Positions 8,118 to 10,199 of a DNA stretch of 42,292 bases are shown one piece after another. The stretch covers positions 63,922 through 106,213 of the forward strand of contig MGQK01000053.1 of assembly GCA_001797815.1 (NCBI GenBank). The letters run 5' to 3'. Under the pieces are notes generated by a model. That model saw only the letters and a list, made by a program, of their open reading frames with translations, searched no databases and was not told the DNA's origin. Every line of letters starts with the position of its first letter. Position 1 is the first letter of the stretch. Position numbers and translations under genes: made by a program. Origin of the DNA: Deltaproteobacteria bacterium RBG_13_61_14. Its GTDB lineage: Bacteria > RBG-13-61-14.

Positions 8118-8146
8118 TTGACATCGCCCCGCGGATTTCTTAAAAT
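8118..8146 (+). promoter_or_regulatory. strong sigma70-type promoter for the UpxY-like gene
   Basis: A perfect -35 TTGACA (8118-8123), an exact 17-base spacer, and TAAAAT (8141-8146, five of six). Transcription would start near 8153, giving a leader of about 145 nt before the ATG at 8297. This is one of the best promoter matches in the window, and it separates the antiterminator gene from the glycan genes upstream. Confidence 0.75.
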
Positions 8147-8163
8147 AGAATATGCCAATTGAA

Positions 8164-8280
8164 CTGGATGGGTGGACCGGGGAAGAAGCAAACGGTCCAC
8201 TCCGTATATCAAAAATCCAGTGATATTTAATTTTTCCCTTTTGGATCACCGCAAGCGCACTGGATCAGGAGGTAATCCAG
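8164..8280 (+). promoter_or_regulatory. structured 5' leader with mutually exclusive pairings
   Basis: Four complementary blocks occur in the leader: CTGGAT (8164-8169), ATCCAGTG (8215-8222), CACTGGAT (8258-8265) and ATCCAG (8275-8280). Block 1 can pair with block 2 or 4, and block 3 with block 2 (8 bp) or block 4 (6 bp). Between blocks 1 and 2 is a separate hairpin, GTGGACCG/CGGTCCAC (8172-8179 with 8193-8200), with a 13-base purine-rich loop. Pairing of block 3 with block 4 would enclose the Shine-Dalgarno sequence. The complementarity is seen directly; switching behaviour is inferred. Confidence 0.5.
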
Positions 8281-8299
8281 CGCAGGACTTTGCGCGATG
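8267..8299 (+). promoter_or_regulatory. ribosome-binding site with a hairpin between Shine-Dalgarno and AUG
   Basis: AGGAGG at 8267-8272 is 24 bases before the ATG at 8297, too far for normal initiation, and no ATG, GTG or TTG lies at a normal distance. GCGCA (8280-8284) and TGCGC (8291-8295) form a 5-bp stem with a 6-base loop between them. Folding removes 16 bases and leaves an effective spacing of 8. An in-frame TAA at 8273 rules out an earlier start. Confidence 0.55.
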
Positions 8300-8881
8300 T
8301 TAAGAGTCGCCGAGAATCCCGTCCCCCGCTTCCCCATCGGCCGCCCGTTGTCGCAGGACATGGGCTCCTGGTGGGTAGCCCGGGTCAAGCCCAGGCAAGA
8401 AAAGGCCTTGGCCTGGGATTTAGCTCGGCTCGGGGTCGGCTATTACCTCCCGATGCTGACCAAGCGAACGCGAAGGCGGGACAACGGCAAGCTGCGCAAA
8501 TCTTTGGTCTGCGCTTTTCCCGGCTATCTTTCCGTGACTTATTATAAGGAACGAAAGGCCGAGATTTTACGCACCGGCCGCATCCTGAACTTGCTCAAAG
8601 TGAGCGGGCAGGAACAGTTCGTCCGGGAACTCGAGCAGATCTACCAGGCGCTGTCGCATTCCACCGAGTTGGAGGTTCAACCGCACCTGGCCGTGGGCCG
8701 ACGGGTGATGATCGCTTCCGGCCCGATGCAAGGCATCGAGGGAATCGTGACCGACCTGCGTCGGCCCCGCAAGGTTTTTCTCAACGTGGAGATTTTCAAC
8801 CGAGCGGTCATGGTCATGGTCTCCCCCGAAGAGTTGGTCCCGCTCGAAGAACCCAGGGAGGGAACACGACTAAGGGCGTGA
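8297..8881 (+). CDS. UpxY/RfaH-like NusG-family transcription antiterminator
   Basis: A 194-residue NusG paralogue. The N-terminal NGN domain begins at SWWVARVKPRQEKALAWDLARLGVGYYLPM (about residues 22-53), the usual W-x-V-x-x-K-P-R-Q-E pattern of the UpxY-like group. A KOW motif follows at VGRRVMIASGPMQGIEGIVTDL (about 134-155). Such factors bind RNA polymerase at specific operons, commonly surface-polysaccharide clusters, and suppress early termination. The gene lies inside such a cluster, has its own promoter and a long structured leader, and may control the genes after it or the locus as a whole. A second in-frame ATG at 8360 would remove the residues before the NGN domain and is an alternative start. 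Confidence 0.88.
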   Translation: MLRVAENPVPRFPIGRPLSQDMGSWWVARVKPRQEKALAWDLARLGVGYYLPMLTKRTRRRDNGKLRKSLVCAFPGYLSVTYYKERKAEILRTGRILNLLKVSGQEQFVRELEQIYQALSHSTELEVQPHLAVGRRVMIASGPMQGIEGIVTDLRRPRKVFLNVEIFNRAVMVMVSPEELVPLEEPREGTRLRA

Positions 8882-8951
8882 GCGCGCTTTTCCCAGCCTC
8901 GAATGGCCCCCGGCGGGTCCACGGCTTCGCGCACCGCTCCCGTTGTCCGAA

Positions 8952-10199
8952 ATGAGTTTTGCCACCACCCGCGAGCTCGACTTGCTGGCCCGCTGCCTGG
9001 CCCCTCCCCAGGAAGCGGAGGCTGCTCACTTGGCGGCAGCCGCACAACAAGTTTCCGATTGGTCCCATCTCTACCAATACGCGCATGAGCGCCTGGTTGC
9101 TCCCCTCCTTTACGCCCGCTTGCGCCACGCGAACCTGCTGGAAGTAGTACCCCCCGAAATCCGAAACCGTTTCCAGTGGATCTATGAACAAACCGCGGCG
9201 CTCAATGCCCTCCGCTTGCATCAGATCTTGAAGGTCTCCACTCCTCTGGTGGAACAGGGAGTCCGGACTCTCTACTTCAAAGGCACCAGCTTGATCCTGA
9301 CCGGAGATTACCCGGACCCCGGTCACCGGATGTTCGCGGACGTGGATTTACTGGCCAAGGAAGCGGACAAGGAAAATCTTCGCCACGCCTTTGCCCAGGC
9401 CGGCGGGTGGTGGGAACTGCCCGTTCCCGGTCGGCAAGCGGTGAAGGATACCAAGTGGGTGAACGCCTGGCGAACTCTGATCGAAGTGCATTGGCACCTG
9501 AAATCTTACAATGGCGTGCCCGGCCAGGTGGCGGAAGACCGGCTTTGGTCCTCCGCCCAGCCGTTGAACTACCGGGGAAAGATCGCGTGGGTTCCCGCGC
9601 CGGAGGACCGCTTCATCATGGCGGCCGTTCACAGCACGGTGCAGCATGCCTTCGATTCTTCTTTGTTGTTGGTGGCGCTGGCGGACCTGGCCCATATCGC
9701 GGGCAAAAATCGAGGATCTTTCGATTGGGACCGGATGGCCCAGGCGCTGGAGCGAGAGCGAATGCTGGAACACGTCACGGTGGCCACCCAACTGGCCTGG
9801 GAGGTGACCCGCTTTCCACCGCTCCAGGAGGGACTGGCCGCCTTCTGGCGTCGCCAACCCGGTCTGGAAACCATCACCACCCCCTTGGTCCGGCCACTCC
9901 TGCGCATGATCCGGAAGCCCTGGGTCTTTGCCAGTCTGGCCGAATCCCGGTTTCTCACCGCTCCCCCCTGGCGCCAACGCATCCAGGTGCTCGTCTCCAC
10001 CGTCTTCAGCAAACTCTTTCCCCATTCCTGGAAGAGCACCCCCTTCATGGAAAAAGGCGCCGAGGTGGAAGTGATCAAAATGAACACGACGCCTCAACGC
10101 CGGTTCTTCGATCTCGACTTTCTGTCCTATATCATCCAGTTGAACCGGTTTTATCGGCGGATCGGCTATACCGGCTTGAATGGCAAAGTGCATGACTGA
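8952..10199 (+). CDS. NTP_transf_5 family nucleotidyltransferase-like protein
   Basis: A 415-residue protein of the uncharacterised nucleotidyltransferase family (PF14907 type), common beside exopolysaccharide genes. The core motif is LYFKGTSLILTGDYPDPGHRMFADVDLL (about residues 97-124): Lys-Gly-x-x-Leu followed by Arg and the Asp-x-Asp pair expected to bind metal. Next come helical segments and a histidine-rich region (IEVHWHLKSYNG, AAVHSTVQHAFDSS). A TTG at 8943 is in frame, but the ATG at 8952 is the more likely start. The biochemical role of the family is not established. The gene lies 70 bases after the antiterminator gene and probably shares its transcript. Confidence 0.8.
   Translation: MSFATTRELDLLARCLAPPQEAEAAHLAAAAQQVSDWSHLYQYAHERLVAPLLYARLRHANLLEVVPPEIRNRFQWIYEQTAALNALRLHQILKVSTPLVEQGVRTLYFKGTSLILTGDYPDPGHRMFADVDLLAKEADKENLRHAFAQAGGWWELPVPGRQAVKDTKWVNAWRTLIEVHWHLKSYNGVPGQVAEDRLWSSAQPLNYRGKIAWVPAPEDRFIMAAVHSTVQHAFDSSLLLVALADLAHIAGKNRGSFDWDRMAQALERERMLEHVTVATQLAWEVTRFPPLQEGLAAFWRRQPGLETITTPLVRPLLRMIRKPWVFASLAESRFLTAPPWRQRIQVLVSTVFSKLFPHSWKSTPFMEKGAEVEVIKMNTTPQRRFFDLDFLSYIIQLNRFYRRIGYTGLNGKVHD

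Follow-up and report, generated by a model that had tools for sequence, protein, structure and literature searches.

Gene content and start codon

We analysed a stretch of 42,292 nucleotides from Deltaproteobacteria bacterium RBG_13_61_14 (contig MGQK01000053.1), hereafter the window, whose positions are used throughout; the promoter-like site, the leader elements and the gene described at 8118-8881 lie on its forward strand. Positions 8297-8881 hold a gene for a NusG paralogue of 194 amino acids that is similar to UpxY, RfaH and LoaP. The family was read directly from profile matches: the product matched PF02357 (NusG) with an E-value of 3e-8 and 34.5 bits against a gathering score of 22.2, and its best NCBIfam match was the UpxY antiterminator NF033644 (E-value 3.4e-20, 72.7 bits where the cut-off is 100), with RfaH and LoaP ranking next. 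A profile built from the product and its relatives matched the structures of NusG and RfaH. The original prediction had called the product an antiterminator, which can be kept in the sense of a NusG paralogue, but not at the level of the subfamily, where the UpxY score falls short. With its NusG-type protein and adjoining polysaccharide-type genes (GNAT, DegT, polysaccharide-synthesis (PF02719) and nucleotidyltransferase genes surround it), the gene resembles those of UpxY, RfaH and LoaP, but the protein scores below the curated cut-off of every one of these subfamilies, and whereas factors of this type usually serve long operons, a single same-strand gene lies downstream here. This gene (NTP_transf_5, PF14907) is followed by convergent acetolactate synthase genes in the part of the window that runs from 8297 to 10199.

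The likely start codon is the ATG at 8297-8299, which was chosen by codon usage statistics and gives the protein an N-terminal MLxLxDNPP that is conserved in relatives from Planctomycetota (33-39% identical). A start in relatives at the ATG at 8360, with a ribosome site of its own, had been named as what would speak against the original reading; AGGA is just 1 nt away from this ATG and so out of the normal range, and on this ground and because of the N-terminal extension common to the relatives it was rejected. The TTG at 8290 lies in another reading frame and was discarded.

Among the three genomes of the phylum examined, the gene was found in the window's own genome alone and was absent from the other two, and searches of IMG/VR and of plasmids for relatives gave no matches. 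The Planctomycetota relatives have nothing of this leader in common with the window and carry neither AGGAGG nor a 5-bp hairpin before the ATG, which says little at their distance. A motif around GTGCACC...ACG-GGACGGAGTC is common to the leaders of three of these NusG-paralogue genes; it is located about 97 nt (L005), 50 nt (L006) and 61 nt (L008) upstream of the ATG and may serve that group as an ops-like or RNA recruitment element. The motif is absent from the leader in the window.

Promoter-like site and putative leader RNA

A promoter-like TTGACA-17-TAAAAT is located at 8118-8146, with 11 of 12 consensus matches where 0.2 such sites were expected in the region. Taking this site as the reference, a putative 5' leader of about 145 nt (8152-8296; fold z-score -2.2) would begin 6 nt behind the -10 hexamer and reach as far as the ATG. 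It contains four copies of the word ATCCAG/CTGGAT in alternating orientation, at 8163 (S1), 8215 (S2), 8258 (S3) and 8275 (S4). S1 (8163-8169) pairs with S2 (8215-8221) in a predicted stable hairpin at 8163-8221 (-24.3 kcal/mol), the inner stem of which joins 8170-8179 with 8193-8202. S2, ATCCAGTG (8215-8222), can pair either with S1 or with S3, CACTGGAT (8258-8265), with which it forms a perfect 8-bp inverted repeat, and S3 is in turn complementary to S4, ATCCAG (8275-8280), a pairing that would place the AGGAGG at 8267-8272 in a 9-nt loop.

Several other elements were considered in the leader. An intrinsic terminator was sought in it and none was found. Scans with Rfam 15 at both thresholds returned no relevant match, and none at the gathering score. 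The sequence TTGGATCACC (8241-8250), just before the Shine-Dalgarno (SD) sequence, is identical to part of the usual 16S rRNA 3' tail; a pairing of it with GGTAATCC was dismissed, as it was absent from every fold and its predicted pairing was negligible. An open reading frame of 23 codons (MPIELDGWTGEEANGPLRISKIQ, 8152-8223) runs from the predicted transcription start into S2, where it ends. Such a location would be apt for a leader peptide; as a gene it was rejected, since its codons are not used as in coding sequence (LLR -8.9, lower than for 99% of real starts). A recognition hairpin of the LoaP type was rejected as well, since the target of LoaP is a hairpin with a UNCG tetraloop (PMC12691694) and the loop of the 8163-8221 hairpin has 13 nt.

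Elements in front of the start codon and their chance rates

The original prediction described a perfect AGGAGG (8267-8272) and a hairpin of GCGCA (8280-8284) with TGCGC (8291-8295) between it and the ATG, and both letters and coordinates proved exact. The spacing from AGGAGG to the ATG is 24 nt and, with 8280-8295 looped out, becomes 7 + 1 = 8 nt, as had been calculated. Taken alone, the hairpin GCGCA-N6-TGCGC has a predicted energy of -6.8 kcal/mol, a value that includes a possible sixth pair, G8285-U8290. That AGGAGG stands outside the normal range is correct, but it does not follow that the gene has no SD sequence there: the original prediction overlooked the SD core AGGA at 8284-8287, which precedes the ATG by 9 nt and, when aligned to AGGAGG, gives a spacing of 7 nt, within the modal range of the genome.

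For comparison, 922 genes were called in a background sample of 1.39 Mb of the same genome. Their SD words most often have a spacing of 5-8 nt, a further maximum near 24 nt is absent, and 59 of the 922 genes have AGGA at exactly the position equivalent to 8284-8287. The genes without a 4-base SD sequence in the normal range (506 of 922) make up about 55% of the sample, and the genome thus mixes SD-led and SD-less starts. AGGAGG at 13-30 nt showed no enrichment, be it in all genes or in the genes without a near SD sequence; a genome-wide class of distal SD sequences was likewise abandoned, since a rise at 19-25 nt in a rough initial profile vanished once more sequence was included and the genes were called more accurately.

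In order to place the hairpin against this background, its chance rate was determined in several ways. Hairpins with 5 bp or more that restore a 24-nt spacing to 5-11 nt follow 7.7% of 9355 SD-like 5-mers in the 1.39 Mb, and at random spacings of 16-33 nt a restoring hairpin follows 3.8% of SD-like 5-mers. An SD-like word at 16-33 nt precedes 46 genes, of which 2, the window's gene included, have such a hairpin, where about 1.8 were expected. Hairpins of at least 5 bp were found in 8.2% of random 24-nt stretches compared to 45 of 922 true upstream 24-mers. The frequency of the GCGCA/TGCGC hairpin is no higher than chance.

Candidate modes of translation initiation

The explanation that we prefer, and to which we give an even chance, is an ordinary translation start of the NusG-paralogue gene behind a structured leader, positioned by AGGA. 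The 30S subunit would start at the AUG at 8297, with AGGA (8284-8287) setting its place at a distance common in this genome. AGGAGG 8267-8272 would be there by coincidence or serve at most for initial docking (as a standby site), and the GCGCA/TGCGC hairpin would be a chance pairing that must melt. A strong SD sequence would not be required, as the many genes without a 4-base SD sequence in range indicate. Both the actual use of AGGA and the part given to AGGAGG are what we infer from the positions and the genome's habits. Against an ordinary start stands the weakness of AGGA (-4.0 kcal/mol), which moreover lies partly within the hairpin at 8280-8295.

A split ribosome-binding site, in which AGGAGG binds the 3' end of the 16S rRNA and the hairpin at 8280-8295 brings the AUG to 8 nt, appears doubtful, although its geometry is exact and there is a precedent. 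Hairpins between the SD sequence and the start codon that restore the spacing are indeed known from a few phage genes, as the original prediction had stated: in genes 38 and 25 of T4, the distances from the SD sequence to the AUG of 22 and 27 nt are reduced by a hairpin to 5 and 11 nt, respectively (PMC3014915). These sites were confirmed by mutants and, for gene 25, also by probing (Nivinskas 1999; Malys and Nivinskas 2009, as reviewed in PMC3014915). The window is similar in that its strong AGGAGG is 24 nt from the AUG, with a spacing-restoring hairpin between them; however, the absence of a near SD sequence that defines the T4 sites is not found here, with AGGA at the modal position, and whereas the T4 arrangement is confirmed by mutants, the hairpin in the window is known from its sequence and occurs at the chance rate given above. 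Standby-site mRNAs such as tisB (PMC7708055) would resemble the window in offering the ribosome a place of contact apart from a structured start, but the tisB standby site is about 100 nt upstream and needs 5' structure, whereas AGGAGG is 24 nt off.

The predicted stability of the bridging hairpin depends on the length of the RNA. Its pair probability was 0.97 in an RNA ending at the AUG, about 0.7 when extended to 8310, 0.06 to 8330 and 0.5 to 8360, the decrease in longer RNAs arising because the coding region competes for pairing; the values of 0.06-0.5 in the two longest folds speak against a split site. Rough energies, which ignore ribosomal unwinding and protein S1 and use the standard anti-SD sequence because the assembly lacks the 3' end of the 16S rRNA, point the other way. 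On 8152-8360, the split state (hairpin kept, AGGAGG and start region opened) would cost 8.0 kcal/mol for a gain of -10.7 kcal/mol, compared to a cost of 13.2 and a gain of -4.0 kcal/mol for the AGGA state (opened through the start region), and the opening costs ranged over 9-14 kcal/mol for the stretch from AGGA to the AUG versus 6-10 kcal/mol for the split state. A possible extended pairing of AGGAGGUaAUCC with the standard 16S tail would yield -15.8 kcal/mol. Since these approximate energies favour AGGAGG with an intact hairpin over AGGA, we do not count the split site as refuted.

A leader RNA switch seems slightly less probable still. In such a switch, the S1:S2 pairing would let CCUUUU or S3/S4 cover AGGAGG, and the S2:S3 pairing would free it; the balance would be tipped by the binding of a ligand or of a protein, for which the NusG paralogue is a candidate, or by ribosomes translating the upstream 23-codon reading frame. 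The anti-SD-like CCTTTT at 8237-8242 paired with 8267-8272 in a constrained S1:S2 fold. The 8163-8221 hairpin argues for a switch with a z-score of -4.2 (1 of 200 shuffles was as good, for a 60-nt stretch), as do the mutually exclusive S1:S2 and S2:S3 states, which are predicted to lie within about 1 kcal/mol of each other in transcripts ending at 8299-8330. SD-like words with flanking arms and an alternative partner are also rare (14 of 7628, or 0.18%, and 1 of 318 near gene starts, which is that of the window), albeit in a class that was defined after the sequence had been seen; the S3/S4 arms around AGGAGG are more unusual than the GCGCA/TGCGC hairpin. However, the two states are predicted to differ by only about 0.4 kcal/mol in what it costs to open AGGAGG, a comparable quadruple word occurs in about 5% of the upstream regions of the genome, and neither the Rfam scans nor the codon usage of the upstream reading frame speak for a switch. 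The combination of both ideas, namely translation gated by the leader, with the remote AGGAGG bridged by the hairpin and hidden or exposed by the two nearly equal folds S1:S2 and S2:S3, we consider unlikely.

It is very improbable that the CTGGAT/ATCCAG dyads serve a repressor as operators in the DNA, with the RNA pairings and the position of AGGAGG in the spacer as by-products. The fourfold occurrence of a single 6-bp word, its orientation alternating, behind a strong promoter-like site would fit, but CTGGAT-N9-ATCCAG was found at no other gene start in the 1.39 Mb, where the single other similar copy is intragenic.

Implications

Chance alone should produce a lone perfect AGGAGG accompanied by a small hairpin a few times in each genome, so that such a find needs the support of conservation or mutants. 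If true, the split site would represent the arrangement of T4 genes 25 and 38 in a bacterial chromosome, and it would put an operon-specific transcription factor under the control of RNA structure. A gated leader, if true, would belong to a chromosomal gene for a NusG paralogue in a sparsely sampled bacterial phylum.
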